The notes below the pieces were generated by a model that saw only the letters and a list, made by a program, of their open reading frames with translations, did not search any database and was not told the origin of the DNA. Shown here piece after piece: positions 4,306 to 34,354 of a DNA stretch of 64,000 nucleotides (positions are counted from its first letter, which is position 1; every line of letters starts with the position of its first letter). Source of the stretch: Leeuwenhoekiella sp. (GTDB lineage: Bacteria; Bacteroidota; Bacteroidia; Flavobacteriales; Flavobacteriaceae); assembly GCA_002708845.1 (NCBI GenBank), contig PAPI01000024.1, forward strand, positions 186,001 through 250,000, given 5' to 3'. The translations under genes and the position numbers were made by a program.

Positions 4306-4347
4306 AGCAGCTTGTGTTAGTTTCAATCTTTCAGTTCTTTAAAACGA

Positions 4348-4998: not shown

Positions 4999-5083
4999 CG
5001 CTTTCAAAACATTTAATTAACCATATACTTGGGTGATTTCAAAAGTTGTAGGGTAATTATCAGGATTTGCAGTGCTTAATACA

Positions 5084-5791: not shown

Positions 5792-6391
5792 ATGCTTTAC
5801 GAGGCCATTGAAATATTACGGGAACAACTGGCAAACTACCTCAATAATACCGGTCTCGGTAGCGATAAGGTAGCTCTTGACTCTATTGCGCACTTTATCG
5901 ATAATCCAAAAAATGATAATGAGGCTCTGGATGATAAGGTCATTATTTCATTACTCAGTCTTCAGGAAGAAACCAGCCTCAAGAATCAGCGTAATATGAG
6001 TTTTCAAAACGGAAGTCCCGTTTATACAAACAATCCGGTAAATGTACATGCCTACATTCTTTTCACCTGCAATCGCAGTGATTATGCATTCTCGTTACGT
6101 TCATTGGCCGCCGTTATCGCATTTTTTCAAGGTAAGAGCATTTTCAATCATAAGAATACCGTGTTCACACGCAATACCCAGGTGATGCGTGATGTAAAGG
6201 AATTCTACTTTACGCTGGACCTCTACACCCCCACTTTTGAAGAGCTTAACTACATCTGGAGTATGCACGGTGGTAAAGCCTACCCCGCCGCACTTTATAA
6301 ACTAAACTTATTAAGTCTTGAACGTGAACACAGCTTATTTGAAGGTGTACCACTTTCTCAGGTAAATAAAGAATATAAACATATCAACTGA
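5792..6391 (+). CDS. eCIS cap / tube-terminator protein, Pvc16-like (DUF4255)
   Basis: The 199-residue protein starts MLYEAIEILREQLANYL, as Pvc16/Afp16 N-terminal (DUF4255) proteins do, and its central region (VNVHAYILFTCNRSDYAFSLRSLAAVIAFFQG) fits that family. In characterised eCIS the Afp16 protein ends the tube and sheath and sets final tail length. An alternative in-frame TTG at 5762 would add ten residues but lies inside a putative -7 promoter box, so the ATG is preferred. Its TGA overlaps the next ATG by one base (ATGA), indicating translational coupling. It is the first gene of the cluster. Confidence 0.88.
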   Translation: MLYEAIEILREQLANYLNNTGLGSDKVALDSIAHFIDNPKNDNEALDDKVIISLLSLQEETSLKNQRNMSFQNGSPVYTNNPVNVHAYILFTCNRSDYAFSLRSLAAVIAFFQGKSIFNHKNTVFTRNTQVMRDVKEFYFTLDLYTPTFEELNYIWSMHGGKAYPAALYKLNLLSLEREHSLFEGVPLSQVNKEYKHIN

Positions 6392-7242
6392 TGATTTCTC
6401 AGGCTACATATAGAATCTTATGCGAAGTACAGGTTTTTCACCGGTATTTTCTGGATGATGGCGAGACGATTTTTGATCAGGATACTGCTTTTAAAACGGC
6501 CCGACTCAAAAAATACGATTGGTCCCAGTTTGCTTTTGCTAGCCCAACATCAGACACCAGACATAAGTTGATGAATCACCGGCTATTTTATAAAAACACC
6601 GCTTTAGGTTTTAAAATTTTTGTTGAGGCCCTCGCACAAAACCCCGATGCAACCATCTACAGACCTGTTATTGATCTGGATGAAGACCTGCAGCTTGACT
6701 TTATGGTGGTGACAACAGATGCTTTATTTGGAAACTATTCTAATCTCGACGAGGTTACCCGTTATCCATTGGTTTTTAGAAATTATAATGACCTACTAGA
6801 TCCTTCTTTACCACTCATCAATACTGCTTCAGAAGCGATTGTAGCATCGGATTATGCGATAAATGAAGACCTTCAAAAGCAAGTTTTTGTAGACTATCAG
6901 AAGGATCGTATAAATCAGGCTACAGCTTTGATATCCTTAAGAATGCGCGGTCAGGGTACGGGTCGTAATCTTATTCTGGTAAACGGTAACCTTCCGCAAG
7001 AATTACCTGTATTCAATATTCGGTTTGAAAACAGAAGGACCATCTGGAATTATTACTCAGGCCGGGATAAAAGCCTTATTCATACTACAGATCCAGACAC
7101 AAAGCCGCTCACTCAAAATGGAATCATAGAGGTTAGCCAGGGCAACACCGATTATCCTGCGGCTTCTCCTGAAAATATAATCTGGGAACGTGACTCCGGT
7201 GGTAACCTGCTAAAAACTTATTCAAAAATTTATATTAACTAA
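6391..7242 (+). CDS. Uncharacterised eCIS protein, candidate cap adaptor
   Basis: This 283-residue soluble protein has no signal peptide or membrane segment. It is rich in beta-type segments (LQLDFMVVTTDALFG, ALISLRMRGQGTGRNLILVNG). I do not recognise a named domain. Genes in this position, between the DUF4255 cap gene and the sheath gene, recur in Bacteroidota eCIS loci. The AlgoCIS particle is known to contain an additional cap-adaptor component, so this is a reasonable candidate for that role. That assignment is inference from gene position only. It is translationally coupled to the cap gene by a one-base overlap and is followed after 11 bp by the sheath gene. Confidence 0.6.
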   Translation: MISQATYRILCEVQVFHRYFLDDGETIFDQDTAFKTARLKKYDWSQFAFASPTSDTRHKLMNHRLFYKNTALGFKIFVEALAQNPDATIYRPVIDLDEDLQLDFMVVTTDALFGNYSNLDEVTRYPLVFRNYNDLLDPSLPLINTASEAIVASDYAINEDLQKQVFVDYQKDRINQATALISLRMRGQGTGRNLILVNGNLPQELPVFNIRFENRRTIWNYYSGRDKSLIHTTDPDTKPLTQNGIIEVSQGNTDYPAASPENIIWERDSGGNLLKTYSKIYIN

Positions 7243-7253
7243 ACACACTAATT

Positions 7254-9221
7254 ATGGCATCATCATACAAAACGCCAGGGGTTTATGTAGAAGAAATATC
7301 AATATTTCCTCCCTCTGTTGCTCAGGTAGAGACTGCGATCCCGGCATTTATTGGGTATACCAATATGGCTAAAGACCGCAACGGAAAGTCATTGGACGAT
7401 ACTCCACAGAAAATTACTTCTATGCTCGAGTTTGTAACCTATTTTGGTGGCTCACCTAAAATTTCGGTCAATTCGGTTAAACTCAACAACCTCAATCAGG
7501 TCACCGAATTAATATTGGAAGACAATTACTATCTCTACGAGGCTATGCGACTGTTCTATGCAAATGGTGGTGGCAAATGTTATGTCGTGAGTGTGGGTAA
7601 ATCAGACGGATCAAACATCACACTTACCGCTCTCAAGAAAGGTCTTGATGCTATTGCTAAAGTAGATGAACCTACCCTACTGGTAGCGCCTGACGCCTGC
7701 ATTTTAGGGCAAAGCGATATGAATAGCCTGTATCAGGCTATGCTCGCGCAGTGTGGAAAACTGGGAGATCGGTTTGCCATTTTCGATCTCAAAAATGAGG
7801 AGAGTCTAACGCTTGATGAGGAGATTCAAAATTTCAGAAACGGTATTGGGATGAATAACCTTAAATACGGTGCAGCCTATACCCCCTGGCTTAAAGCCAA
7901 TCTTCCACGAGAGGTCAGTTATGCCAGTATTAAAGGTAAAATAAACCGAAACGGAAGCCCTTTAAGTTTGGCTGATCTAATTGATGATGCCGATGCAAAA
8001 GCATTGGCCAATCAATTAGACCAACTCATAGATGATAGTGTGACTATTGATGCACAACTTACCGCATTAGCAGATGGCACTAGCTCGGCAGATGCACGTT
8101 ATGATGGTTTAGTTACAAGCCTTAAGCTTGACACAACTAAAACCAATTTTCAAAATCTAATTAACCTATATATTGAAGGAATTGATTTTGTACGCGATAC
8201 CCTTGAGATCGGCACCAGCACTTTTGCCCTGACGCACACCGCTGCTACCCCACCCAATGAGGCCTTACTTACTCACCTAAAAGCTCAATTGGATGATAGC
8301 GTAAACAGTGGAGCAATCAATACGGTCGTTTCTGCAATACAACAAATGAAAGCTGACTTTGAAGATGAATTTTCTGCCACATTAACGCTAGCTGCTTCTG
8401 CTACAGGTTTAGATTATGCAACAGGTACGGCAAACGGAACCTATTTTAGCGGTGCGGCTAGTCAGGGAGCGGGAATTACCGCTCACCTCAAAGATATTAT
8501 GGGTCTATACGGCGATATAAAATCGGCTGTAGATTATATCAGAACTACGGTTTCCAGTTATGTAAGCACCTATGAAAACTCAGCTGTAGAAAGTATACCT
8601 ACGCTTAAGAATATTAAGAATGCTATTGCAAGTGAATACCTAACTCTTCCACCCAGTGCAGCAATGGCAGGCGTTTACTCACGTATTGACGAAAACCGCG
8701 GGGTCTGGAAAGCTCCGGCAAATACTTCGTTAAACAGTGTAGTTGGGGTTACCGAGCTCATTGATCACGATCAACAAAAAGACATCAACGTAGATGTGGT
8801 TGCGGGTAAAAGTATTAACGCGATCCGCCCGTTTACCGGAAAAGGTATTATGGTTTGGGGAGCACGCACCCTGGCCGGAAACGATAATGAATGGCGCTAT
8901 ATCTCCGTACGTCGTTTTTTTAATATGGTTGAAGAATCAGTTAAAAAAGCTACCGAACAATTTGTTTTTGAGGCCAATGATGCGAACACCTGGGTAAAAG
9001 TACGAGCGATGATTGAAAACTTCCTCAACCTCCAGTGGCGTGCGGGAGCACTTGCCGGAGCCAAGCCAAATGACGCCTTCTTTGTACGGGTAGGTTTGGG
9101 CGAAACAATGACCGCCGAAGACATCCTAAACGGGGTTATGAACATCGAGATCGGCATGGCCGTTGTAAGACCGGCAGAATTCATCATTCTCAAGTTCTCT
9201 CATAAAATGCAGGAGTCTTAG
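7254..9221 (+). CDS. eCIS contractile sheath protein (Afp2-4 / T4 gp18-like)
   Basis: The 655-residue protein opens with the classical sheath N-terminus YKTPGVYVEEI (residues 5-15). It ends with the conserved tail-sheath C-terminal domain (IRPFTGKGIMVWGARTL ... NEWRYISVRRFFNMVEESV ... NLQWRAGALAG ... VVRPAEFIILKFSHKM). The sheath polymerises around the tube and contracts to drive injection. A long Ala/Thr/Asp-rich, largely helical segment at about residues 235-460 separates the two conserved parts and probably forms a surface-exposed outer domain. There is a single sheath gene, whereas Afp and PVC loci have three paralogues. The gene lies within the same-strand eCIS unit. Confidence 0.95.
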   Translation: MASSYKTPGVYVEEISIFPPSVAQVETAIPAFIGYTNMAKDRNGKSLDDTPQKITSMLEFVTYFGGSPKISVNSVKLNNLNQVTELILEDNYYLYEAMRLFYANGGGKCYVVSVGKSDGSNITLTALKKGLDAIAKVDEPTLLVAPDACILGQSDMNSLYQAMLAQCGKLGDRFAIFDLKNEESLTLDEEIQNFRNGIGMNNLKYGAAYTPWLKANLPREVSYASIKGKINRNGSPLSLADLIDDADAKALANQLDQLIDDSVTIDAQLTALADGTSSADARYDGLVTSLKLDTTKTNFQNLINLYIEGIDFVRDTLEIGTSTFALTHTAATPPNEALLTHLKAQLDDSVNSGAINTVVSAIQQMKADFEDEFSATLTLAASATGLDYATGTANGTYFSGAASQGAGITAHLKDIMGLYGDIKSAVDYIRTTVSSYVSTYENSAVESIPTLKNIKNAIASEYLTLPPSAAMAGVYSRIDENRGVWKAPANTSLNSVVGVTELIDHDQQKDINVDVVAGKSINAIRPFTGKGIMVWGARTLAGNDNEWRYISVRRFFNMVEESVKKATEQFVFEANDANTWVKVRAMIENFLNLQWRAGALAGAKPNDAFFVRVGLGETMTAEDILNGVMNIEIGMAVVRPAEFIILKFSHKMQES

Positions 9222-9263
9222 ACTTTTTAAGCTTAAAAAAATCAATAACTAAAAACAGATAAG

Positions 9264-9701
9264 ATGGCAGCTACATATCCATTAGTAAAATTTCATTTCC
9301 TGGTAGACTGGGGCGGTACAAACGTAGGCTTTACAGAAGTTTCAGGTCTTGATATTGAAACCGAACTCATCGAATACCGCCAGGGAGCCAGTCCGGAATA
9401 CAGTAAGATCAAAATGCCGGGGATGCAGAAATACAGCAATATTACGCTTAAACGCGGCACCTTTTTGGCCGATAACGAGTACTACACTTGGTGGAATACC
9501 GTCAAACTCAATACCATTGAGCGACGCGACATTACCATAAGCCTGCTTAACGAAGAGCACGCTCCCGTTGTAGTCTGGAAGGTCAAAAACGCTTTCCCAA
9601 TTAAGGTGCAGTCAACAGACCTTAAAGGCGATGCCAATGAAGTCGCTATAGAATCTATGGAAATTGCTCACGAAGGCCTAACCATTCAAAACGGAAGTTA
9701 A
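9264..9701 (+). CDS. eCIS inner tube protein (Afp1 / T4 gp19-like)
   Basis: The 145-residue protein has the T4 gp19-like tail-tube signature: a start YPLVKFHFLVDWGG, then FTEVSGLDIETELIEYRQG, a KMPGM loop, LKRGTF and a C-terminal SMEIAHEGL strand. This form is the likely main tube subunit, building the hollow hexameric-ring tube inside the sheath. Its stop overlaps the start of the second tube gene by one base (TAATG), so the two are translationally coupled. Confidence 0.93.
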   Translation: MAATYPLVKFHFLVDWGGTNVGFTEVSGLDIETELIEYRQGASPEYSKIKMPGMQKYSNITLKRGTFLADNEYYTWWNTVKLNTIERRDITISLLNEEHAPVVVWKVKNAFPIKVQSTDLKGDANEVAIESMEIAHEGLTIQNGS

Positions 9702-10132
9702 TGGCAACTTACTATCCACCGGTTGGTTTTCACTTTAAGGTTGAATTTGGAATCACGCAGGACAGTGAGTTTGAATTTCAGTCAGTAAGCGGTCTTTCGG
9801 TTGATATTGAGACCGAAGAATTTACCGAGGGCGGCGAAAATCGCTTTAAGCACAAGCTACCGGTGCGTACCAAATTTCCAAATCTGGTTCTTAAGCGCGG
9901 TCTGGTAACCAATTCAGACCTTATTGCCTGGTGCCGGGATGCCATTGAAGATTTTCAGTTTAAACCTACGGGCGTGATGGTCAAGTTGCTTAATGAGGAG
10001 CATCAGCCCTTAAAAACGTGGAATGTGGTACACGCCTACCCTGTAAAATGGAGCGTAAGTGACTTTAATGCTGAAGAGAACAGCCTGGTAATCGAGACTA
10101 TAGAACTTGCCTACAACTATTTTAAAAGCTAA
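9701..10132 (+). CDS. eCIS tube-initiator protein (Afp5-like, gp19 family)
   Basis: This 143-residue paralogue of the preceding tube protein has the same fold markers (YPPVGFHFKVEFG, QSVSGLSVDIETEEFTEGG, LVLKRGL, IETIELAYNYF). In Afp-type particles a second gp19-family protein forms the initiating ring between the baseplate hub and the tube. The order here, main tube then a divergent paralogue then DUF5908 and LysM, fits that role. Assigning initiator versus main tube to the two genes is inferred from order. Confidence 0.88.
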   Translation: MATYYPPVGFHFKVEFGITQDSEFEFQSVSGLSVDIETEEFTEGGENRFKHKLPVRTKFPNLVLKRGLVTNSDLIAWCRDAIEDFQFKPTGVMVKLLNEEHQPLKTWNVVHAYPVKWSVSDFNAEENSLVIETIELAYNYFKS

Positions 10133-10135
10133 GCC

Positions 10136-10297
10136 ATGCCAATAGCCATTAAAGAACTGCACATCAAGATCAATGTAAGTGATGATTCTCAAAGCACCGC
10201 TTCAGCATCACGTACACCGGCAGATAAAAAAGACGCTATTATTCAGGCTTGTCTGGAGCAGGTCGCACACATAGAAAAACGTAAAAATGAACGCTAA
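10136..10297 (+). CDS. DUF5908 small eCIS protein (Afp6 position)
   Basis: A 53-residue gene fits exactly between the second tube gene and the LysM gene. It starts at an ATG three bases after the previous stop, and its TAA at 10295-10297 abuts the next ATG at 10298. The N-terminal MPIAIKELHIKINVS matches the DUF5908 pattern (MPIxIxELxIK) found in the same slot of other eCIS loci. A variable Ser/Thr/Ala linker follows, then a C-terminal amphipathic helix (KDAIIQACLEQVAHIEKRK). The function of the family is not established. Confidence 0.85.
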   Translation: MPIAIKELHIKINVSDDSQSTASASRTPADKKDAIIQACLEQVAHIEKRKNER

Positions 10298-10984
10298 ATG
10301 ACAACCGGAGCTCACGATAAACTAAAGATTACGGCCTATAAAGATCCCGAGTTTACAGACAAGGTGGGCGACGGGCAGTTTACAACGCTGCTTAATCCGG
10401 AGAAGTACGTGCTCAATTACCAGATTGAGTACAAAGAGGAACAGGCTTCAGGAAGTAGCTCCACGGCTCCTGTTTTCGATAAAATCACGCCTAAAGAGCT
10501 TGATCTGGAGTTTCTCTTTGACCGTACCGGCATCATTGCCCACGACGATCAGGGTAGCGAGCAGGGAATCATTGAAGACATTAAACTGTTTAAAAAAGTA
10601 GTTTTTGATTATGCGGGAGAAGAGCACAAACCCTACTATCTGGAGATTCGCTGGGGTAACCTCATCTTCAAATGTGTGATGCTCAATATGAGCATTGAGT
10701 TTAAGCTTTTTAGTCCCGATGGCACTCCGTTACGGGCAGTTATCAAAGCTAAGTTTAAAGAAACGGTTGACGAAGAGTTACGACTGGCACAGGAAAACAG
10801 CAGTTCGCCAGACCTCACCCATATGCGCACGGTAGCAGATGGCGACACCCTTCCGTTAATGACCTATCGCATTTATGGCGACAGCAAGTATTATCTGGAG
10901 GTGGCCCGGGTAAATGGGATTACCAACTTCAGAAAGCTAAAAACAGGGCAGCAATTATTTTTTCCGCCTTTGGCGAAAGCATAA
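10298..10984 (+). CDS. LysM-containing eCIS baseplate hub protein (Afp7 / gp53-like)
   Basis: The 228-residue protein has an N-terminal domain typical of Afp7-like hub proteins (FTTLLNPEKYVLNYQIEYKEEQ ... KELDLEFLFDRTGI ... LEIRWGNLIFKCVMLNMSIEFKLFSPDGTPLRAVI). It ends in a LysM module at about residues 175-225 (VADGDTLPLMTYRIYGD ... LKTGQQLFFP). In eCIS and T4-like tails this protein joins tube and spike or clamps wedge components. Here LysM is a structural module rather than a wall-binding device. It starts directly at the stop of the DUF5908 gene. Confidence 0.9.
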   Translation: MTTGAHDKLKITAYKDPEFTDKVGDGQFTTLLNPEKYVLNYQIEYKEEQASGSSSTAPVFDKITPKELDLEFLFDRTGIIAHDDQGSEQGIIEDIKLFKKVVFDYAGEEHKPYYLEIRWGNLIFKCVMLNMSIEFKLFSPDGTPLRAVIKAKFKETVDEELRLAQENSSSPDLTHMRTVADGDTLPLMTYRIYGDSKYYLEVARVNGITNFRKLKTGQQLFFPPLAKA

Positions 10985-11017
10985 CAAGTTAAAAACTAGA
11001 AAAATCAGTATTAATTT

Positions 11018-12766
11018 ATGAACACTTCCCGAAGCATAGCAACCGCACAAAATCCCGATTTGGTTACCACAACTATTTTGGTAAATGGCGAGCAGCTCTC
11101 TGCGGCTTATGCGGTTAAATCCATTTTGGTAAACCGGGAAGTTAATCGCATTCCGTATGCCCAGCTGATTATTCTGGACGGGGAAGCTGCCAGTCAGGAA
11201 TTTGAGCTGAGCAACACCGATTTATTTGTGCCGGGAAGTGAAATTGAAATCAAAGCCGGCTACCACAGTGATGAGGAATCGATCTTTAAAGGAATTGTCA
11301 TCAGTCACGGTATTAAAATCCGCGATGCCGCTTCAGCCTTGATTGTTGAATGTAAAGATCCTGCGGTTAAAATGACTGTTGGGACCAAAAGCGCCTATTT
11401 CTATGAAAGTTCAGACAGTGATATTATTGAACAGCTTATTTCGGCATACAGCGGTCTTTCGGCAGATGTGGAAGCTACGAGTGTCACCCACAAAGAACTG
11501 GTACAGTATCAGACTTCAGATTGGGATTTTATGATGCTCCGCACACAGGCAAACGGCAAATTGGGTTTTGTAGAAAATGGAAGGATTCAAATTAAAGAAC
11601 CTAATTTAAGTCAGGAACCTGTGGAAACGGTTGCCTACGGTGCTACAATGCTCGCCTTTGACGGCGAAGTTGATGCTCGTGACCAAATCAAAAAAATTAC
11701 CGCCTACAGCTGGAATGCCGGTGATCAGGAACTCATAGAGACTGAAGCTGCTGATGCTAATGTCAATTTAAACGGTGATTTGTCTAAAAATAATCTTGCG
11801 GAAGTGGTAAACCTGGAAAATCTTGCTCTCAAACATGGGGGACAGTTAAACACCAGTCAGTTACAGCAATGGGCGGATGCAAAAGCTAAAATACAGGAAC
11901 TCGCCCGTAACCGGGGCAGGGTTCAATTTATTGGAATTCCGCAGGTAAAACCAGATACCATCATTAAACTGGAAGGTGTTGGCAATCGCTTTAATGGCAA
12001 CGCCTACATTACCGGCGTACGTCACGAGATTGCAGACGGCACCTGGACAATTGATGCGCAGTTTGGCCTGGATCCCAAATGGTTTAGTGAAACCTACAAC
12101 GTAAACCCACAGCCCGCAGCCGGTCTGGTTGCAGCAGTACAGGGTCTGCAAACCGGTATTGTTACCCAACTTGAAGAAGACCCAGAGGGTGAAGACCGTA
12201 TTTTGGTCAACATTCCCATTATTGATGCTACTTCCGAAGGGATTTGGGCTCGGGTGGCCACATTAGATGCCGGAGATAGCCGCGGAAGCTTTTTCAGACC
12301 CGAAGTTGGCGACGAAGTTATTGTGGGATTCATCAATAGTGATCCCAACTATGCCGTGGTACTGGGCGGTGTTAACAGCAGTAAAAAACCTGCTCCTCTT
12401 CAGGCATCTGATGACAACCACGAAAAAGGCTTTGTGACTCGCAGCGGGATGAAGTTGCTTTTTAATGACGAAAAATCATCGGTCACTATAGAAACTCCGG
12501 CCGGGCGTGTGATTGTGATTGACGATGATGCCGAAGAAATTAAAATTGACGATGCTGGGTCTAATAGCATCATCCTGAATACAGATGGGATTGAAATCAA
12601 CAGCAGTGCAGATATCAATATCAAGGCCTCCGGCGATCTTAATCTCGAAGGAACCAATGTAAACATCAAAGCCAATGCAGAATTTAAGGCGGAAGGCGGC
12701 GCGGGTGCAGAACTCTCTACTAGCGCAGTTGCCGTACTTAAAGGCTCTTTGGTGCAAATAAATTAG
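11018..12766 (+). CDS. VgrG-like central spike protein (Afp8; gp27-gp5 fusion type)
   Basis: The 582-residue protein has a gp27-like region (about 20-350, including the IEIKAGYHSDEESIFKGIVISHGI barrel), then a gp5-type OB-fold at about 367-455 (GIVTQLEEDPEGEDRILVNIP ... SRGSFFRPEVGDEVIVGFI). It ends in a triple-stranded beta-helix of short hydrophobic repeats (INSSADINIKASGDLNLEGTN). It should trimerise as the needle at the distal end of the tube, capped by the PAAR protein encoded four bases downstream. No extra effector domain is fused. Confidence 0.93.
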   Translation: MNTSRSIATAQNPDLVTTTILVNGEQLSAAYAVKSILVNREVNRIPYAQLIILDGEAASQEFELSNTDLFVPGSEIEIKAGYHSDEESIFKGIVISHGIKIRDAASALIVECKDPAVKMTVGTKSAYFYESSDSDIIEQLISAYSGLSADVEATSVTHKELVQYQTSDWDFMMLRTQANGKLGFVENGRIQIKEPNLSQEPVETVAYGATMLAFDGEVDARDQIKKITAYSWNAGDQELIETEAADANVNLNGDLSKNNLAEVVNLENLALKHGGQLNTSQLQQWADAKAKIQELARNRGRVQFIGIPQVKPDTIIKLEGVGNRFNGNAYITGVRHEIADGTWTIDAQFGLDPKWFSETYNVNPQPAAGLVAAVQGLQTGIVTQLEEDPEGEDRILVNIPIIDATSEGIWARVATLDAGDSRGSFFRPEVGDEVIVGFINSDPNYAVVLGGVNSSKKPAPLQASDDNHEKGFVTRSGMKLLFNDEKSSVTIETPAGRVIVIDDDAEEIKIDDAGSNSIILNTDGIEINSSADINIKASGDLNLEGTNVNIKANAEFKAEGGAGAELSTSAVAVLKGSLVQIN

Positions 12767-12770
12767 AAGT

Positions 12771-13067
12771 ATGCCACCAGCAGCACGAATAAACGATATG
12801 CACGTTTGCCCACAGGTAATTCCCGGCCCAACACCGGTACCTCACGTAGGCGGACCAATTTTACCTCCGGGTGCACCAACGGTATTAATAGGCAATTTGC
12901 CTGCAGCCCGCGTGGGCGATATGGCTGTTTGCACCGGTCCGCCGGATAGTATTGTTGCAGGCTCGGCCACGGTATTGATTGAAGGAATGCCCGCAGCACG
13001 ATTGGGGGATAGTACAGCCCATGGGGGAACCATAATGGCCGGTGATCTCACGGTTTTAATAGGATAA
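12771..13067 (+). CDS. PAAR-domain spike-tip protein (Afp10-like)
   Basis: This 98-residue protein consists only of a PAAR domain. It has three Pro-Ala-Ala-Arg copies (PAARIND, PAARVGD, PAARLGD), each preceded by a short strand such as TVLIGNL or TVLIEGM, plus conserved Cys and His residues (HVC, AVC, STAHGG) for zinc binding. It sharpens the spike and can carry effectors, but none is fused here. It follows the spike gene by four bases. Confidence 0.95.
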   Translation: MPPAARINDMHVCPQVIPGPTPVPHVGGPILPPGAPTVLIGNLPAARVGDMAVCTGPPDSIVAGSATVLIEGMPAARLGDSTAHGGTIMAGDLTVLIG

Positions 13068-13145
13068 ACCACAAGGCGGTAACTAATTAGACGTATAAAC
13101 GAGCTTAAAGGTATTATACCTTTTTGCGATGTCAATAGAAAAACA

Positions 13146-13556
13146 ATGAAAGATAATCTGGCATTTTTAGGTACAGGATGGGCATTTCCCCCGCATTTTG
13201 ATAAAGAATCGGGTAAAACGAAAATGACCTCGGGTGTTGAAGATATCAATGCCAGCCTGTACATTTTACTGAGCACCAAACTGGGTGAACGCGTAATGCT
13301 ACCCAAATACGGCTGCGCGATGCTGGACCTCGTTTTTGAATCGCTAGACCTTTCTACCCGCACCTACATTGAGGAGCGCATACGTACCGCAATTCTCTAT
13401 CACGAGAAACGCATAGATCTGCTCGGTGTGAGTTACGACCGTAGCCGCGAGCTCGAGGGTGAAGTGCGCTTGCTTATAGAATACAACATCAGGCAAACCA
13501 ATTCCAGAGGAAATATGGTTTATCCCTTTTACAAGGAAGAAGGTTTTAATAATTAG
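13146..13556 (+). CDS. gp25-like baseplate wedge protein (Afp9)
   Basis: The 136-residue protein shows the GPW/gp25 pattern: an N-terminal FLGTGWAFPPHF, then EDINASLYILLSTKLGERVMLPKYGC and a C-terminal RLLIEYNIRQTNSRGNMVYPFY. In T4-like and eCIS baseplates gp25 initiates sheath polymerisation, since its fold mimics the sheath handshake. The 78-bp gap before it is the longest since the sheath-tube spacing and contains no recognisable signal. The next gene starts five bases after its stop. Confidence 0.92.
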   Translation: MKDNLAFLGTGWAFPPHFDKESGKTKMTSGVEDINASLYILLSTKLGERVMLPKYGCAMLDLVFESLDLSTRTYIEERIRTAILYHEKRIDLLGVSYDRSRELEGEVRLLIEYNIRQTNSRGNMVYPFYKEEGFNN

Positions 13557-13561
13557 AAACG

Positions 13562-19452: not shown

Positions 19453-19464
19453 AAACAAATTATC

Positions 19465-24663: not shown

Positions 24664-24666
24664 GTG

Positions 24667-26184: not shown

Positions 26185-26195
26185 AACCGAAAACT

Positions 26196-26642: not shown

Positions 26643-26652
26643 ACCGACGATT

Positions 26653-26976
26653 ATGGATTTTAAAAACTTATTTGAAGCACTTAAAGCAGATATTCTTGAT
26701 CTGGTAAAAGACCGTTTTGACGAAGAGGGAACTCAGGTGCGCAAGGATATTGAGAATTTTCTGGAAGGATCTAAAGATAAACTTATGCGTTGGACGCTGC
26801 TGCTCGAACAAGGAGCACTGACTCCGGCTGAATTTGAACTCCTACTAAAAAGTCAAAAAGATTTACTGGTAATTCAAAGCCTGCAACGAGCCGGAATTTC
26901 TAAAATAAAGATTGGGTTATTTAAAAATGAAACCATAAAAATTATTGTGAACAAGGCTGTCACAGCACTCATTTAA
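26653..26976 (+). CDS. Small helical eCIS-associated protein, function unknown
   Basis: The 107-residue protein is charged and helical (FEALKADILDLVKDRFDEEGTQVRKDIENFLEGSKDKLMRW). It ends in a more hydrophobic, Ile/Lys-rich tail (KIKIGLFKNETIKIIVNKAVTALI) that could be an amphipathic or membrane-associating helix. There is no signal peptide and no recognised domain. It lies 10 bp after the lipoprotein gene and 11 bp before the two-TM protein gene, in the same unit. Confidence 0.65.
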   Translation: MDFKNLFEALKADILDLVKDRFDEEGTQVRKDIENFLEGSKDKLMRWTLLLEQGALTPAEFELLLKSQKDLLVIQSLQRAGISKIKIGLFKNETIKIIVNKAVTALI

Positions 26977-26987
26977 AACGAAGAACT

Positions 26988-27596
26988 ATGGAGAGTCTCA
27001 CACTTTTCGAACAGGTTTTTATGTATCTCGGCATTCTGATGTTTGTTGTTTTACTGGGTTCACTGGTATTTTTTGTAGTAAAGGGAAAAGAACTTAAACC
27101 CCTGCTCCTGTTTTTCCTGATGCCGATTTTGATGATTGGCTATCCCAGTATTCAGGAGATAAAATATCAGGAAATCTGGATCAAGCTACATAAGTCCCAG
27201 CAGAATCTTGTTGAGAATCCCGCCGATAGTGCTTCGCGCAGAAAGGTTGAAGCACTCACTAACAAAATTGAAGCCCGTGCACATACCGAAGAACAATTAA
27301 ACAGCATCACCTATTCTAAAATTCTGCTTCAAAAACCCAAAGAAGCAGAATATTTTGCCGAAAAAGCCCTTTCTGAAAATAAAAATTCAGAGACCGCTAA
27401 AGAGTTGAAGCAAGTTGCACAGGTACAGGAAGAATTGAAGATTGCCAAACGAGACACCGCTACATCAGCCTCTCTTGACAGCTCGGCAGTCAAACAACTC
27501 GAACAGGTAAGGCTTCCTGCGCGATACGAGCCTATAAACCAGTATGTACTGCGTACGCGCTACTTAAGCACACAGCAACGAACTCAAAATAATTAG
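26988..27596 (+). CDS. Two-transmembrane eCIS-associated protein with a coiled-coil C-terminus
   Basis: In this 202-residue protein, two close hydrophobic helices (residues ~10-32, MYLGILMFVVLLGSLVFFVV, and ~36-54, LKPLLLFFLMPILMIGY) form a hairpin. An ~145-residue helical, coiled-coil-like soluble tail rich in Lys/Glu/Gln follows, with a segment resembling a TPR-like helix pair (AEYFAEKALSENKNSETAKELKQV). The hairpin topology recalls small membrane-anchor or holin-like proteins, but no family was recognised. It lies directly upstream of the DUF4157 cargo gene (4 bp gap). Confidence 0.65.
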   Translation: MESLTLFEQVFMYLGILMFVVLLGSLVFFVVKGKELKPLLLFFLMPILMIGYPSIQEIKYQEIWIKLHKSQQNLVENPADSASRRKVEALTNKIEARAHTEEQLNSITYSKILLQKPKEAEYFAEKALSENKNSETAKELKQVAQVQEELKIAKRDTATSASLDSSAVKQLEQVRLPARYEPINQYVLRTRYLSTQQRTQNN

Positions 27597-27600
27597 GATC

Positions 27601-30600
27601 ATGCCTGTATTTGCAAAAAATAAACCCGCTTCTCAGAAGACTTCCGGCAAACCCGGAAAAGCTTCTTTTTTTGGCGTACAGGCAAAGCTAAAATCGGGCA
27701 AACCCGGCGATCGCTATGAGATAGAAGCAGATAACGTGGCTGCACGGGTGGTTCAGAATACCGGCAATTTGGGATCTGGCAGTCCTGCAGCACAGGCAAA
27801 ACCTCTGGCTAAAAGCATCAGTACAGGCGTACAATTGAAGCCTTTGGAAGACGAATCGGTACAAACCAAAGCCGATGACGAACTTCAAAAGCAGGAAGAA
27901 GAAGAGGCAGTTCAATCAAAGGCAGATAGCCAATTGCAAATGCAGGAGGAAGAAGAAGCTGTTCAATCTAAAGGTAAGGAAGAAGAGGCCATTCAGTCAA
28001 AAGAAGAGCAAGAAGAAGTACAAATGCGCGCAGGAACGGCGCAAAGGAGTGCGGATATCAGCAGTGAATTGCAAAGTTCCCGGGGTGGCGGTTCGCAACT
28101 GCCTGAAACATCCCGAAATCAAATGGAAGCCGGTTTTGGCACCGATTTAAGCGATGTGCGCGTGCATACTGATCAGCGGGCGCAGACTATGGCTCAAAAT
28201 ATAGGTGCTCAGGCTTTTACCAGCGGTAGTGATATTTATTTTAATCAGGGACGTTTTAATCCAGGTACAACGCAAGGCGATGCCCTACTGGCACATGAAT
28301 TGACGCATACTATTCAACAAGGCGCTGTTGATGCGAAACAGGAACCTCAAAGCACAACAACCGGAGGTACATCTGCGAATACGACTTCAGCTACCGAAGT
28401 AGAATTGGCCCCAGAAAATGCCACAGCTGTAGTAACTCCTGAAAATGGAGAAACTACCGCCAATCCACAGGAGGGAACGCCTCAAAATGCAGAGAATCAG
28501 GCAGGCGGCGCTCAAACCGAGGCAACACCTTATCCCCGAAGTCCCCAGAAAGATCCCGCCTTTCAACAGGCCGAAAATCAGGTGGATGATCGTTCAGAAA
28601 CTGCCCAGACCACCCAGCCTGCCTCTCAGGCGGCAGCGGCAGCATCTGCTGCAGCTCCTGCTGCTTCAAATGAGCAACTAAGTGAAGCTCAGGCCGGTCA
28701 GGTTGCCGTGATGGAAGAACAGGAACCCGGAACTTTTGATGCTGTAGCTTTTAAAGCCCGCCTGATGGAACGCATCGAAGCCATGCAGCTTCCGGCAAAC
28801 GAAGAAGAGGCAGATGATTTTGAAAACAACAATAACATTGATGAAGTTACCGCAGACGGTACCGCGATGGCTTCGGCAGAGCGGCAACAGGCCGCCGGGG
28901 CTATAGATCAGGCTACTCAAACAGAACCCAACCCCGACTCGGTACCGGCCCGAGAAGTTGAACCACTCCCAGAACCCGAATACGGCTCCCCTCCTGCTCC
29001 TGTGCGGGCAGCTCAGGCAATGCCTGCGCCCCGTCCAGAAGATCAGGTAAGTGCTCCTTTGCAGGAAAATATGCAGGATATTGATGCGGAGATGGCCAAT
29101 AACGAGGTTACTGATGAGATGCTGGCAAACAGTAACGAACCCAGTTTTACCCAGGCATTAGACAGTAAACAGGAAGCGCGTACACATACCGAGCAGGCTC
29201 CACAGGAGTTTAGACAAACAGAACAAAACAGTCTTGCCGCTACTTGCGAACAGGCGCAAAATAGCAGCGGTGCACAGCTTGAGGCCATGCACAATAGCCG
29301 TACCGGAACTTTGGGTACGATGCAAACCCAACAACAAACCGGAGCACAGTCAGACAGTGCAGAACGTGAACGTATCGCAGGAGAAATCAACCGCATTTTT
29401 GAAGCTACCAAAACCGATGTGGAAACCTTGCTGGCTGATTTGGAAACTGAAGTTGAAACTCGCTTTGAAGCTGCAGCAAAACGTGCTAAAAAAGTTTTTG
29501 AAGACTATGTTGAGCGTAAAATGGATGCATACAAGGACGAGCGTTACAGCGGAGTGGGCGGTGCTTTGACCTGGGTAGGAGACGCCTTTACCGGATTGCC
29601 TGATGAAGTAAACGCCTTTTTTGAAGAAGGCCGAAACAAATACATTGAGGCCATGGATAGTGAACTCACCACAATTGCAGAGTTCATCGCTCAAAAACTT
29701 ACCGAAGCTAAACAGCGTATCGCTCAGGGGAAACAGGATGTCGCGACGTTTGTAGAATCACAACCCGAGGCTTTGAGAGGTATAGCACAGGAAGCTGCAG
29801 AAAACATACAGGAGCAGTTTGACAGCCTGGAAGACGACGTAAACAGCAAGCAGGATGAATTGATAGACTCTCTGGCACAGCAGTATCAGGACAGTCTGGC
29901 CGAAGTTGATGCTCGTATTGAAGAAATGCAGGCCGCAAACCGTGGTCTCATAGATATGGCTATGGGATTGGTGATGGGCATTATCAACACCATTATTGCC
30001 ATTAAAAATATGCTGACCAATTTACTCAGCGCTGCACTGGAAGCTATTGGTGCGATCATTTCAGATCCTATAGGTTTCCTAAGTAACCTGATAAGTGGTG
30101 TAAAAGCGGGCTTTATCAATTTTGGAAACAATATTATGCAGCATTTGATGAATGGATTGGTCACCTGGCTAACCGGTGCATTGGGTCCTATGGGCATTAC
30201 CATTCCTGAAGATATTTTTAGTCTTAAAGGCATCTTTAGCCTCGTGATGCAAGTATTAGGACTTACCTGGGATTACATGCGTCAAAAGGCTGTAAAACTG
30301 CTGGGAGAACCCGTAGTACAGGCTCTGGAAATGGGATTTGAACTTTTTCAAATAATCAGGACTGAAGGTATTGCCGGTATTTGGGAATACATTAAAGAGC
30401 AATTCAATGACCTTAAAGAAACGGTAATTGACAGCATACAGGAAATGATTATTTCAACCGTCGTTGATGCAGGGATCAAATGGGTATTGGGCTTGATGAG
30501 TCCGGCGGGAGCCTTTGTCAAGGCTGCAATGATGATCATCGATATTGTCAAATTCTTTATTGAGCGCGGCAGCCAGATTATGGAACTCATCAACGCATTT

Positions 30601-32208
30601 ATTGATGGTATTAAAGCTGTGGCTTCCGGAAATGTGGGAATAATTGCCCAGAAAATCGAAACGGCTCTGGGTAAGGCCATTCCGGTAATTATTGGTTTTT
30701 TGGCTTCGTTACTAGGCATCAGCGGACTGGCTCAAAAGGTTCAAAAACTTATTGGAAAAATCAGAAAGCGCATTGATAAAGCAATTGATAAGTTGATTTT
30801 AAAGGCGAAGAAGGCTTTTTCAAAATTAGTCCGTAAGGGTAAAGCAGCTGCCGGAAAATTTGTGGACTGGCTCGGAATCAAAAAACGTTTTAAGACTAAA
30901 GATGGTAAAAACCATAAGCTTTTCTTAGAAGAAACTGGTGGCAAAACCGAACTGGTGGTACAAAGCGAAAAACAATTGGTTGGTGTACGCCTCATCAAGG
31001 CAAAACAGGAAACTCAGGCGATGCCTGATGGGGAAACCAAAACCAAACGCATTGCTGCCGAAGGTCGCATTGACACTTATTTGTCAGAAACCCGTGCGAT
31101 TCTGCAAAAAATCAAAACTGAAGAAAAAAAGCCGACGCCCAATTCTTCAAAAATAGAGGGTTGGAAATCAGAAATTGAGCAGAAATTTACTAGTATCGCC
31201 GGGGATCTGGAAACTATTGGAGTTGAGCCAGGAACCGTGGGCACCGGTGATAATGGAATGCTTCAGGAAATAGGAAAGCAATATGTAACGCCAGATCACA
31301 AAACCAAAGCTGGAAGTAATAATGGCACAGATACATTCCTTTCTGAAAATGGGTATCATTATGCGACTTCAGCTTCGGGTAAGATATATATTCGCAGAAA
31401 AGAAGCTAAAGAAAATGTGCCTCAACTTTCATTTGATATAGAAGGAAAATTACAATTAGGAGGTTCATCTTCTAGCAGTGAAGCTGAGCATAAAAATTAC
31501 ATACCAGATAAGATTACCAGGACAGAAACTGGAATGGGGTATGAAGTAGTCTACACAACTCTTACCGATACAGGAGAAAAAGGACCAAACTTCCAAATCA
31601 ATATTAGCCACGCTGGTGTATTGGCTGCAAATGAAGACGAAAATATCACCCGTCACGTTTCAGGTAGAAATTTGAAGCTCAAAGCCACCGGAGGCGCTCG
31701 TGGAGTTACCGATAGTGCAACCGGCGGTTTCCACAATGCTCACCTAATAGCAGACCGTTTTGGTGGTTCGGGAAGCAATTCAGCAGAAAACATTCATCCG
31801 AGCACCCCAAGATACAATACCAAGGAAATGAAGTCAAAAGAAGATGCTATTGCCCGTATTTTGGAATCAGGTTCAAAAGATCAAAATAATTTTAATTTGG
31901 ATGTTTCGGCAAATATTGTAAAAGAGAAATCGACCAGCGCAGGATTACTTGCTGCCTTAAATGAAGAAGCTAAAAAAGATAATACAGATCACATTCCTTC
32001 TATTGAAGACGCGATGGAACGGGATTTACTAACGCTAATAAGACCTGATTTACATGCATTACCCGGTAAGTTTATGGGAGTGCATTATAATCTTGATGGT
32101 ACAACAAGTTATACAGATGGAAATACTCAAGGTGTTTCTGTCGATTTGTCTGTGGGACAAGATACTGAGTACGACACAAAAATTTTAGAAATTATCAAAA
32201 GAAAATAA
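27601..32208 (+). CDS. eCIS cargo: DUF4157 protein with C-terminal DNA/RNA non-specific endonuclease-like tip
   Basis: The order in this 1535-residue protein is as follows. N-terminal ~85 residues; tandem V/I-Q-S-K...QEEEEA repeats (87-140); DUF4157 at ~150-245 with HELTH zinc-protease motif (His232, Glu233, His236); a long Ala/Gln/Pro/Glu-rich linker (250-560); coiled-coil region (570-780); hydrophobic tape-measure-like helices (~785-1050); a basic segment; and the C-terminal domain (~1290-1535). The last contains GGFHNAHLIADRFGGSG with His1381, then Asn1397 and Asn1406, matching the Endonuclea_NS_2 type of polymorphic-toxin nuclease. DUF4157 is a known marker of eCIS-loaded toxins. There is no signal peptide, as expected for tube-loaded cargo. 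No adjacent gene looks like an immunity protein. Confidence 0.82.
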   Translation: MPVFAKNKPASQKTSGKPGKASFFGVQAKLKSGKPGDRYEIEADNVAARVVQNTGNLGSGSPAAQAKPLAKSISTGVQLKPLEDESVQTKADDELQKQEEEEAVQSKADSQLQMQEEEEAVQSKGKEEEAIQSKEEQEEVQMRAGTAQRSADISSELQSSRGGGSQLPETSRNQMEAGFGTDLSDVRVHTDQRAQTMAQNIGAQAFTSGSDIYFNQGRFNPGTTQGDALLAHELTHTIQQGAVDAKQEPQSTTTGGTSANTTSATEVELAPENATAVVTPENGETTANPQEGTPQNAENQAGGAQTEATPYPRSPQKDPAFQQAENQVDDRSETAQTTQPASQAAAAASAAAPAASNEQLSEAQAGQVAVMEEQEPGTFDAVAFKARLMERIEAMQLPANEEEADDFENNNNIDEVTADGTAMASAERQQAAGAIDQATQTEPNPDSVPAREVEPLPEPEYGSPPAPVRAAQAMPAPRPEDQVSAPLQENMQDIDAEMANNEVTDEMLANSNEPSFTQALDSKQEARTHTEQAPQEFRQTEQNSLAATCEQAQNSSGAQLEAMHNSRTGTLGTMQTQQQTGAQSDSAERERIAGEINRIFEATKTDVETLLADLETEVETRFEAAAKRAKKVFEDYVERKMDAYKDERYSGVGGALTWVGDAFTGLPDEVNAFFEEGRNKYIEAMDSELTTIAEFIAQKLTEAKQRIAQGKQDVATFVESQPEALRGIAQEAAENIQEQFDSLEDDVNSKQDELIDSLAQQYQDSLAEVDARIEEMQAANRGLIDMAMGLVMGIINTIIAIKNMLTNLLSAALEAIGAIISDPIGFLSNLISGVKAGFINFGNNIMQHLMNGLVTWLTGALGPMGITIPEDIFSLKGIFSLVMQVLGLTWDYMRQKAVKLLGEPVVQALEMGFELFQIIRTEGIAGIWEYIKEQFNDLKETVIDSIQEMIISTVVDAGIKWVLGLMSPAGAFVKAAMMIIDIVKFFIERGSQIMELINAFIDGIKAVASGNVGIIAQKIETALGKAIPVIIGFLASLLGISGLAQKVQKLIGKIRKRIDKAIDKLILKAKKAFSKLVRKGKAAAGKFVDWLGIKKRFKTKDGKNHKLFLEETGGKTELVVQSEKQLVGVRLIKAKQETQAMPDGETKTKRIAAEGRIDTYLSETRAILQKIKTEEKKPTPNSSKIEGWKSEIEQKFTSIAGDLETIGVEPGTVGTGDNGMLQEIGKQYVTPDHKTKAGSNNGTDTFLSENGYHYATSASGKIYIRRKEAKENVPQLSFDIEGKLQLGGSSSSSEAEHKNYIPDKITRTETGMGYEVVYTTLTDTGEKGPNFQINISHAGVLAANEDENITRHVSGRNLKLKATGGARGVTDSATGGFHNAHLIADRFGGSGSNSAENIHPSTPRYNTKEMKSKEDAIARILESGSKDQNNFNLDVSANIVKEKSTSAGLLAALNEEAKKDNTDHIPSIEDAMERDLLTLIRPDLHALPGKFMGVHYNLDGTTSYTDGNTQGVSVDLSVGQDTEYDTKILEIIKRK
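27859..28017 (+). repeat. Tandem acidic repeats in the eCIS cargo gene
   Basis: Two 17-codon copies (VQTKADDELQKQEEEEA and VQSKADSQLQMQEEEEA) are followed by two shortened copies (VQSKGKEEEA, IQSKEEQEE). They precede the DUF4157 domain. Acidic V/I-Q-x-K repeats of this style occur ahead of DUF4157 in other eCIS cargos and are probably disordered; a loading role is speculative. Confidence 0.8.
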
Positions 32209-32214
32209 CCCATT

Positions 32215-33042
32215 ATGAAAACACTACGCTATCGCTCACAGGATCAGGAAGTCTACTTCCTTGAAGAAGTTTTACAACAACTGGGGTATTCGGTTTACGT
32301 TTCCACCTATTTTGGGAAAGACACCGATGCCGCAATACGGGATTTTCAAAAGAAGAACGATCTCGTTATAGATGGGGTTGTGGGGCTTAAAACCTGGTCA
32401 AAACTACTTTCGGCTCGTGATAACCTCTTCAGCTTTAGCGATAAATTGTTGGGGGAAGCTGATTTAAAAAAGTTTGCCGAAGACTTTGATGTGGAACTGG
32501 CTGCGGTTAAAGCGGTAAATGAGGTAGAAAGTAGCGGTAAAGGCTTTTTGATTGACGGCAGGCCGCGTATCTTATTTGAAGGTCATGTTTTCTGGCGCCA
32601 ACTTAAAAAGCGCGGACTCAATCCGGGTGATTTTGTGAATGATTATACCAAAGATGTACTTTATGAAACCTGGACCCGCTCGCATTACAAAGGGGGCGCA
32701 GAAGAATACGAACGTCTGGAAAAAGCTGCCGGAATGAGCGATCTGGATGCTGTGCACGATGCGGCTTATGCCTCGGCTTCTTACGGTTCGTATCAAATAA
32801 TGGGTTTTCATTATGAAAGTCTGGGCTATCCCAGCGTTGATGCTTTTGTTGCTCATATGTACACACACGAGCGAGCGCATCTGGAGGCTTTTGGCAAATT
32901 CCTAAAAGCCAATAATCTGCTGAGACATCTGCAAGCTAAAAACTGGGCTGCCTTTGCCAAAGGCTATAACGGCCCGGGTTATGCACAGAACAAGTACGAC
33001 ATCAAACTGGAAAAAGCCTACCAAAAATATAGCAATGCCTGA
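32215..33042 (+). CDS. Endolysin-like N-acetylmuramidase with peptidoglycan-binding domain
   Basis: The 275-residue protein has an N-terminal PG_binding_1 domain (residues ~5-65: LQQLGYSV, DTDAAIRDFQKKNDLVIDGVVGLKTWSKL). A C-terminal N-acetylmuramidase (DUF3380) domain follows, with catalytic Glu105 in NEVESSGKGF plus PRILFEGHVFWR and YGSYQIMGFHYESLGY. It hydrolyses the glycan strands of peptidoglycan. There is no signal peptide, the same as phage endolysins that need another factor to cross the membrane. Within an eCIS it could serve particle release by lysis or be a delivered enzyme. Its last eight bases overlap the ATPase start. Confidence 0.88.
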   Translation: MKTLRYRSQDQEVYFLEEVLQQLGYSVYVSTYFGKDTDAAIRDFQKKNDLVIDGVVGLKTWSKLLSARDNLFSFSDKLLGEADLKKFAEDFDVELAAVKAVNEVESSGKGFLIDGRPRILFEGHVFWRQLKKRGLNPGDFVNDYTKDVLYETWTRSHYKGGAEEYERLEKAAGMSDLDAVHDAAYASASYGSYQIMGFHYESLGYPSVDAFVAHMYTHERAHLEAFGKFLKANNLLRHLQAKNWAAFAKGYNGPGYAQNKYDIKLEKAYQKYSNA

Positions 33043-34354
33043 ATTTAAAGCATTTGAACTGGCCATACAGTATTTAAGAGAAGTGCTGCTCTGGCGTTTG
33101 CGCAATCCCGACATACCATTTAAGAAGGCTCCGGGTTTTGACCCAAACACTTTGCCTCAATCCTACTTAAAAAAACTAATTTCTATTCTGGAGTTACAGC
33201 CTGAGGAACGGCTTATTTTATTTTTGACTCTAGCCCCACACCTCGCCCCGGCTCTATTTCAGCATTGTGTAAATGAAATGTATCCCGAAGGAACTGAATT
33301 ACCCGAAATGGGTGGGGTAAAAGGTTCTAACCATCGCGGAATACTCCCCACCGGTGAAACGGTACTTTTTCTGCTGGCCGGGAATAATGTTCAGCAACGA
33401 CTGCGAAATCTTAGCTATCTGCTTCCGGAAGCACCACTACGGTCTAACAAAGTGATTCAACTTGAGAAAGCTGCGGCTCACGAACCTTTTTTAAGCGGAA
33501 ACCTCCTGCTACAGGAAGATTACGTACAGCTTTTACTCACCGGAAGTATTCCAGATCCAGAGCTCAGCATCGAATTTCCGGCTCAAAAACTGAAGACCAA
33601 TCTTTCCTGGGATGATTTGGTTTTAAACAAGCAAACCTTAAACGAGATTAAGGAATTGGAAATCTGGCTCAACCATCACGAGACACTTCAGAAACAACAC
33701 GACCGTACCGGAAAATTTAAACCCGGTTATCGCGCTCTTTTTTACGGACCGCCGGGAACCGGAAAAACGCTTACCGCCAGCCTGCTTGGTAAATACACTG
33801 GTCGCGAAGTCTACCGCATTGATCTTTCTGTCGTGATTTCCAAATATATTGGGGAGACCGAAAAAAACTTGTCAAAACTCTTTGACAAGGCCCGCTACAA
33901 AAACTGGGTTCTCTTTTTTGATGAGGCCGATGCCATTTTTGGTAAACGCACGCAGGTACGAGATGCACACGATAAATATGCCAATCAGGAAGTTTCCTAT
34001 TTATTACAGCGACTTGAAGAACATCCGGGTCTGGTCATTTTAGCTTCCAACTTTAAATCGAATATTGATGCTGCTTTTACCAGACGTTTTCAGGCCATTG
34101 TTCAATTTACTTCGCCAGACTTTGATGAACGCCTCAAACTCTGGGAACTAGCGCTTCCTAAAGGATTTCGCTTTGCGAAAGACATTGATCTAAAAATACT
34201 GGCTAAAACCTACGACATTACTGGTGCTAACATCAATAATGTGGTGCATTACAGTTGTCTAAATGCTTTGGATCTTAAAACCTTTGAAATTGATAATCAG
34301 AACCTGATTAAAGGCCTGAAACGCGAGTATCAAAAGGAAGAGAAAATGTTTTAA
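33035..34354 (+). CDS. eCIS-associated AAA+ ATPase (Afp15-like)
   Basis: This 439-residue cytoplasmic ATPase has a C-terminal AAA+ domain with Walker A GPPGTGKT (238-245), Walker B LFFDEAD (Asp296, Glu297) and a sensor/arginine-finger region ILASNFKSNIDAAFTRRFQ. The N-terminal ~200 residues are a family-specific helical domain. Afp15/Pvc15 homologues are required for eCIS assembly or cargo loading and are not ClpV. ATG 33035 is chosen because it opens with sequence resembling Afp15 N-termini (FELAIQYLREVLLWRL). Longer in-frame extensions run into the muramidase gene. It is the last gene of the cluster and overlaps the muramidase by eight bases. Confidence 0.92.
   Translation: MPEFKAFELAIQYLREVLLWRLRNPDIPFKKAPGFDPNTLPQSYLKKLISILELQPEERLILFLTLAPHLAPALFQHCVNEMYPEGTELPEMGGVKGSNHRGILPTGETVLFLLAGNNVQQRLRNLSYLLPEAPLRSNKVIQLEKAAAHEPFLSGNLLLQEDYVQLLLTGSIPDPELSIEFPAQKLKTNLSWDDLVLNKQTLNEIKELEIWLNHHETLQKQHDRTGKFKPGYRALFYGPPGTGKTLTASLLGKYTGREVYRIDLSVVISKYIGETEKNLSKLFDKARYKNWVLFFDEADAIFGKRTQVRDAHDKYANQEVSYLLQRLEEHPGLVILASNFKSNIDAAFTRRFQAIVQFTSPDFDERLKLWELALPKGFRFAKDIDLKILAKTYDITGANINNVVHYSCLNALDLKTFEIDNQNLIKGLKREYQKEEKMF

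Follow-up and report, generated by a model that had tools for sequence, protein, structure and literature searches.

AlgoCIS of Algoriphagus machipongonensis is an extracellular contractile injection system (eCIS) of subtype Ib, whose plan, in the available portion of its published description, includes a cap adaptor and a plug, a sheath built from one protein, a cage formed by Alg11 and a giant fiber rich in immunoglobulin (Ig) domains (PMC8894135). Its Alg19 is presented, in the accessible part of a further source, as a homotrimeric tail fiber (PMC13314943). We analyzed 64,000 nucleotides from Leeuwenhoekiella sp. (contig PAPI01000024.1, positions 186,001 to 250,000; the whole stretch is called the window) that contain 20 open reading frames (ORFs) on the + strand between positions 5792 and 34354. 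It is almost certain that these genes, g01 to g20, encode a complete AlgoCIS-type eCIS, the architecture of which is not new. The locus also carries an accessory set that is absent from the published AlgoCIS description: a pair of genes for a lipoprotein and a small helical protein (g15 and g16), a gene for a protein with two transmembrane (TM) segments (g17) and a muramidase gene (g19).

The explanation that we favor for the locus as a whole, with a probability of about one half, is an AlgoCIS-type eCIS combined with a module that lyses the producing cell to release the particles. The assignment of g15–g17 and g19 to such a module falls, in our analysis, slightly short of an even chance. It is proposed because the core matches AlgoCIS in all eight proteins compared, g19 has the layout of a phage endolysin, relatives of the pair are located behind endolysins, the eCIS versions of these genes form clades, and g19 is conserved. 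We infer every step of the lysis from the observed family identities, gene order, co-inheritance and phage parallels. The genes of the locus are as follows.

g01, 5792..6391, +: cap, Alg16A/Pvc16_N type, 199 aa (PF14065, E 4e-26)
g02, 6391..7242, +: cap adaptor, Alg16B type (phmmer against 7adz_1A, E 1e-22)
g03, 7254..9221, +: single sheath, Alg2 type (PF17482; 7adz_2A, E 1e-139)
g04, 9264..9701, +: inner tube, taken as Alg1 type (PF06841; 7adz_1a, E 3e-78)
g05, 9701..10132, +: tube initiator, taken as Alg5 type (PF06841; 7aeb_Y, E 2e-71)
g06, 10136..10297, +: plug, Alg6 type, DUF5908 (PF19265; 7aef_t, E 1e-7)
g07, 10298..10984, +: tube initiator, Alg7 type, CIS_tube with weak LysM (PF19266, E 1e-53)
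g08, 11018..12766, +: central spike, VgrG/Alg8 type (PF04717; TIGR01646, E 3e-70)
g09, 12771..13067, +: PAAR tip (PF05488)
g10, 13146..13556, +: gp25-like sheath initiator (PF04965)
g11, 13562..16741, +: baseplate wedge with cage extension, Alg11 type (PF04865, Baseplate_J; 7aeb_G, E 1e-211)
g12, 16735..19452, +: baseplate wedge, Alg12 type (7aeb_A, E 3e-224; no Pfam family)
g13, 19465..24663, +: giant tail fiber, Alg19 type (9wt0_a, E 1e-126)
g14, 24664..26184, +: tape measure, CIS_TMP (PF19268, E 2e-104)
g15, 26196..26642, +: lipoprotein of the pair (lipobox Cys; all-helical model)
g16, 26653..26976, +: small helical partner without a TM segment (alignment and model; maximum KD19 0.92)
g17, 26988..27596, +: two-TM protein with a soluble tail, candidate holin or inner-membrane protein (hydropathy)
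g18, 27601..32208, +: cargo with eCIS_core (DUF4157) and a nuclease-like C-terminus (PF13699, E 1e-30; PF13930, E 1e-5)
g19, 32215..33042, +: phage-type endolysin, PG_binding_1 and N-acetylmuramidase (PF11860, E 2e-66; phrog_1224)
g20, 33035..34354, +: AAA ATPase, Afp15 type by position (PF00004, E 2e-27)

Gaps between the genes range from -8 to +78 bases, with the value of -8 depending on the start of g20 at 33035, where the ATG was chosen for its overlap with g19. Profiles from Pfam and NCBIfam identified core eCIS families for most of the ORFs, with matches to the cap, sheath, two gp19 tubes, DUF5908, CIS_tube, VgrG-like spike, PAAR, gp25, Baseplate_J, CIS_TMP, eCIS_core cargo, N-acetylmuramidase and AAA ATPase. 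The ORFs and profiles thus bear out a complete 20-gene eCIS on one strand, as read by a first-pass annotation made from the sequence alone. We conclude from the genes that the locus is a complete and apparently intact Bacteroidota eCIS, from which the assembly and release of particles are predicted. When eight structural proteins (g02, g03, g04, g05, g06, g11, g12 and g13) were compared to all PDB sequences, the best match of each was an AlgoCIS chain. The type assignment rests on these eight proteins; where a PDB chain bore another name, its Alg number was deduced from the entry, the chain length and its role. The window and AlgoCIS share the cap, cap adaptor, single sheath, two tube-type proteins, plug, LysM-type initiator, spike, PAAR, gp25, cage wedge, second wedge, Ig-rich giant fiber and eCIS_core cargo. 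The tape measure and ATPase of the window were recognized by profile, and their position in AlgoCIS lies outside the comparison. The window differs in having one cargo, whereas AlgoCIS has two (Cgo1 and Cgo2), and in adding g15–g17. A term search of the AlgoCIS main text, as far as it was available, found no mention of a muramidase; by locus-tag numbering, ALPR1_12685 falls after cgo2 and before the last gene, and the same text does not name it.

The core features listed in the first-pass annotation as non-canonical are those of the published AlgoCIS plan, and the core is therefore not new; the description holds only in relation to Afp/PVC, which carry several sheath paralogues. The possibility of a new eCIS architecture was rejected, since AlgoCIS was the best match in all eight tests. 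The single sheath gene was read correctly, as g03 is the sole match to sheath families in the window and has 7adz_2A as its best match, and it is an AlgoCIS feature too. The supposed extra cap-side protein is real and corresponds to the known cap adaptor Alg16B. Similarly, the giant beta-repeat protein exists and is the Alg19-type tail fiber, so the reported lack of a trimeric tail fiber was mistaken: g13 is homologous to homotrimeric Alg19. It aligns in four stretches to 9wt0_a, a chain of 1443 residues, which is the length given for Alg19, and is predicted, by homology only, to form a trimer. There was no Afp13/Pvc13 chain in the four PDB matches of g13, the presence of such chains in the library being unchecked. 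Both wedges were named correctly, g11 being recognized by Pfam and g12, which has no Pfam family, by its similarity to Alg12. The 1059-residue g11 aligns to 7aeb_G in two stretches, which indicates homology to the cage-bearing Alg11. The LysM hub is well supported as a CIS_tube protein, and its LysM part has only weak profile support (NF008399, E 0.071). The tape-measure family was found in 11/60 relatives and 73/392 genomes of the phylum, which points to a common but patchy distribution of these systems.

The lipoprotein, two-TM protein and muramidase named in the first pass, which offered no mechanism for them, are real. The muramidase g19 has the whole PG_binding and muramidase layout of phage endolysins (phrog_1224 endolysin, E 4e-94). 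Of 50,697 phage records, 641 have a match to g19; in 453 of the 641, a single match place covers at least 80% of the g19 length, all with less than 60% identity. The endolysin of the P2-like phage KS14, homologous to g19 with 43.5% identity, is encoded in the order holin, holin, endolysin, Rz, Rz1, tail. Tape-measure searches retrieved 80 loci, 59 of which contain both the tape measure and the ATPase. Seven of these 59 have the muramidase, and two further loci (L125 and L176) bring the total to nine, in all of which the muramidase gene directly precedes that of the ATPase. We built a tree that also contained two phage sequences as outgroups and 25 homologues found in the genus that includes Algoriphagus resistens (25 loci retrieved from 27 matching genomes of 59 searched); all ten eCIS muramidases form one clade in it (ultrafast bootstrap, UFBoot, 96), separate from the 25 homologues. 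Identities of g19 to its counterparts in seven loci are 95, 97, 65, 65, 72, 70 and 64%, that is, 95–97% in the two closest species and 64–72% in five further loci, and in each of the seven g19 is more conserved than the cargo, fiber and cage; in G010 and G011 its identity is not higher than that of the tubes, cap, PAAR or ATPase. At an eighth locus, L176, the identity is 48% across half the length. From these sequences, the muramidase is a long-standing eCIS component in certain lineages. It is not confined to eCIS, because the Algoriphagus homologues have no other eCIS genes nearby; in three such loci examined, it lies between genes read as a DEAD-box helicase and a DinB-like protein.

The lipobox cysteine of g15 is invariant across 21 aligned sequences. 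The structure models of g15 and g16 are all-helical, with predicted local distance difference test (pLDDT) scores of 87.5 and 90.2, respectively. Neither protein had a match with a meaningful E-value in Pfam, NCBIfam, PHROGs or PADLOC, and four homologues of the pair had none in Pfam either. Searches by tblastn of g15 and g16 against the 50,697 phage records gave nothing at E 0.01, a profile of the lipoprotein matched no PDB sequence, and the best match of the g15 fold in a viral library was an uncharacterized phage protein (E 0.19), which provides no clear viral relative. A match of g15/g16 to the Rz/Rz1 spanin families was not found, and gene position alone fits a spanin pair. A part in a known defense system was considered for g15–g17 and rejected, with PADLOC matching none of the three; the PADLOC match of g20 to IetA reflects its AAA domain.

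Homologues of g16 occur in 24/296 sampled genomes of the phylum and, by profile search, in 15/393 genomes of the order. We retrieved 20 of the 23 loci other than that of the window, and the lipoprotein is present in all 20. In three of them (L154–L156), the pair is part of a tail region that resembles those of phages. Patatin genes are located near it in L153 and L163 (by Pfam) and in L151 and L160 (by size or reading), a PGAP1-like lipase gene in L168 and a gene for an amidase-like protein, by reading, in L163; several loci have no suggestive neighbor. In L151, L153, L171 and L175, the pair directly precedes a 345-residue protein, which is a patatin in L153 (PADLOC effector phospholipase match) and is assumed from its size to be one in the other three. 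Seven further regions from the search of the order comprise one eCIS (L176), three phage-type regions (L172–L174), the two with the 345-residue neighbor (L171 and L175), and L177, which lacks a lipoprotein match. In the eCIS locus L104, a GH46 protein follows the pair. A tree of the pair from 57 loci groups seven of the eight eCIS pairs in one clade (UFBoot 100), with L104 apart, and 30 phage-type pairs in another (UFBoot 100). Tape-measure matches were present in 7/24 genomes with g16 versus 73/392 overall, by lists compared by eye, so there is no clear genome-level link between the pair and eCIS.

A search of viral contigs with a lipoprotein alignment, consisting of three phage-type rows and two others, produced 24 loci. 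All share the order M15 endolysin, lipoprotein, helical protein, gp25-like protein and tail genes, with the lipobox intact and a distance of 1–6 bases between the endolysin and the lipoprotein; the name gp25 is based here on a weak PHROG match and reading, and a protein read as baseplate J matches only a PHROG of unknown function. The pair thus occupies in these contigs the place of Rz/Rz1 in KS14, although g15–g16 have no match to those families. In L184, the one element sampled, Pfam identified DUF2586, which we take to be a sheath family, the phage holin PF05105 and an M15 peptidase, and DUF4280 is found in L203 from the same element. Given the lack of terminase and PF04984 matches described below, the records could represent tailocins, incomplete sequences (fragments) or phages whose heads are divergent. 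L179–L202, L184 and L203 constitute a family of tail-type elements with several fiber-like paralogues by reading, and are possible tailocins.

The two hydrophobic segments of g17 were detected by hydropathy, and the protein has no match to any holin family. Its homologues, searched for in 60 relatives and the loci retrieved by then, were found only in eCIS loci (the window, L042, L092, L125 and L176).

Based on homology to AlgoCIS and on the phage parallels, a course of events can be proposed. The particle would be assembled in the cytoplasm and then released. Release would require g19 to cut the cell wall of the producer, g17 to open the inner membrane for g19 or anchor a partner, and g15 and g16 to target the outer membrane, taking the place of the spanins of phages. 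After release, binding of the fiber would lead to opening of the cage, contraction of the sheath and injection of the eCIS_core cargo.

Several observations weigh against release by lysis. The muramidase is present in only the seven of 59 loci mentioned above, and that of L176 (12371–12910), next to the eCIS of G708, is short and lacks the active-site stretch. None of the 25 Algoriphagus loci has another eCIS gene nearby, so the muramidase homologues there stand alone. The pair occurs mostly outside eCIS: none of the 20 pair loci is an eCIS, bar a lone AAA-ATPase match in L164, and the neighbors include a SIR2 protein (L165) and, by reading, MsrA and glyoxalase genes. Rz1-type proteins are small and proline-rich, and the modeled all-helical g15 is unlike them. 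The viral contigs look like one family found with a mostly phage-type query and are not 24 independent cases. Neither the sheath family PF04984 nor the terminase phrog_2 was detected in any of the 24 records; the controls were positive in 3 and 11 of 14 genomes, respectively, which leaves room for fragments or divergent families. Unlike in KS14, a cargo gene separates the pair from the lysin in the window. L. palythoae and L. blandensis lack g17, and L. parthenopeia (G003), whose cargo and muramidase are 86% and 95% identical to those of the window, has none of g15–g17 at the locus, where the cargo starts about 20 bases after the tape measure. The absence of g17 extends to the whole L. parthenopeia genome, and that of g15–g16 covers the locus; the pair was likely lost in this species, because more distant ones retain it.

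The muramidase could instead be carried by the particle or injected, easing the passage of the tube through the wall of the target or serving as a second effector, with g15–g17 being unrelated accessory genes. The T4 gp5 lysozyme is a peptidoglycan hydrolase borne by a particle. Hydropathy indicates no signal peptide in g19, and its gene is positioned between the cargo and ATPase, where other eCIS loci hold cargo-linked genes. Moreover, AlgoCIS is described in the accessible part of the source as puncturing the outer membrane of Echinicola pacifica (PMC13314943). However, the conservation of g19 above that of the cargo, fiber and cage is not typical of effectors, a Pfam scan found no eCIS_core sorting domain in it, and its nearest family is that of phage endolysins, adjacent to holins in KS14 and several other phages among those listed. 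We therefore regard a particle-borne g19 as unlikely. The function of g17 could also be separate from lysis, as a membrane tether of the particle or an assembly factor, a role that Streptomyces CisA is said to have. The restriction of its homologues to eCIS loci would agree with such a role. Of six Leeuwenhoekiella eCIS loci, counting that of the window, three lack g17, which speaks against the role, and we consider it improbable.

The pair, perhaps with g17, might alternatively be immunity proteins or protect the envelope against enzymes that attack it, such as g19 or the cargo. Lipoproteins often serve as immunity proteins in the periplasm, and the neighbors of the pair include the patatins of L153 and L163, the PGAP1-like lipase, the GH46 protein, the amidase-like protein and the M15 lysins. 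It would be odd, however, for one conserved family to accompany unrelated enzymes. The same cargo and muramidase occur in L. parthenopeia, where the pair is missing from the locus, and in L. palythoae the pair is retained next to a cargo that differs in its tip and aligns to residue 1110 only. Immunity in this general sense is thus quite unlikely. The narrower idea that the g15–g17 trio confers immunity to this cargo was rejected, as L. parthenopeia has the cargo without the trio.

By its sequence, g18 is a cargo of the ordinary eCIS kind, comparable to Cgo1 and Cgo2; DUF4157 is the older name of its eCIS_core domain. The nuclease tip annotated in the first pass falls just below the Pfam cut-off (PF13930, 26.3 versus 27 bits). 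No known immunity gene was found beside g18, and the genes of the cargo and muramidase are directly adjacent. In other eCIS loci, we considered 31 genes between the tape measure and ATPase; the set is limited to the + strand and to loci with the ATPase within the retrieved DNA, and excludes seven genes known or presumed to encode TPR proteins, all genes from L067 and L071, and L076:17219-18625. Immunity genes are frequent at this position: L059 and six further sequences of alignment A8, seven of the 31 in all, have matches to the Tdi1 immunity family, which suggests antibacterial DNase cargos in other eCIS. L072:15044-15856 encodes a PG_binding and CHAP protein, with CHAP just below the cut-off, directly before the ATPase in the muramidase region, which speaks for the lysis module. 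The gene L105:15210-16025, which is 58% identical to it and positioned between the tape measure and ATPase, is presumably the second PG_binding/CHAP match among the 31.

Upstream of the cap gene, the window contains a divergent operon (2789-5578) encoding, by reading, a lipoprotein, a five-TM protein, a histidine kinase and a LuxR-type regulator. Two to four genes of this operon flank the eCIS in five Leeuwenhoekiella relatives (L126 and L128–L131), and orthologues are also present in relatives that lack an eCIS (L205–L208); a regulatory link of the operon to the eCIS is therefore only a guess. G001 and G008 do not have the tape measure, and in both (L205 and L208) the orthologue of the lipoprotein gene at 5084-5578 abuts the genes of the downstream flank of the G006 locus. 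The whole system thus behaves in this sequence comparison as one block, with the site in G001 and G008 being unoccupied; in G002 and G009, other genes follow. Elsewhere in the window, the G+C content drops to 0.313 at 58001-60000, compared to 0.449 and 0.416 in the adjoining 2-kb stretches.

Release by lysis is not a new idea, because lysis cassettes have been reported for Afp and Yersinia entomophaga, to which we liken the locus by their descriptions. The Afp cassette, as far as its source was available, consists of an endopeptidase, a holin and a lysozyme (PMC12961389); like the window, it associates an eCIS locus with predicted producer-lysis genes, and it differs in being located upstream of the locus and having a named holin, whereas in the window the lysin and an undescribed pair are inside the operon. 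The type 10 secretion system of Yersinia entomophaga is described, in the part of the source at hand, as a lysis cassette that releases a large Tc toxin complex, which is not an eCIS (PMC10847048). The parts in Leeuwenhoekiella may be new. A literature search covering mostly papers free of subscription found none on contractile injection in Leeuwenhoekiella and, in titles and the beginnings of abstracts, none on a lysis cassette in a Bacteroidota eCIS.

More generally, some Bacteroidota eCIS might carry a release cassette within the operon, with an undescribed outer-membrane lysis pair substituting for spanins, a tentative proposal that we find somewhat doubtful. The lipoprotein and small helical protein may then be shared with flavobacterial tail-type elements, perhaps headless tailocins. 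The core of the locus is ordinary, and the accessory genes are moderately interesting. How eCIS exit Bacteroidota cells is unsettled in the literature covered; if g15–g17 and g19 are what releases the particle, the locus provides a list of the parts, and the question can be tested by simply removing genes. Since none of four libraries has a family for the pair and g16 is widespread (24/296 genomes), one experiment would annotate many genes.

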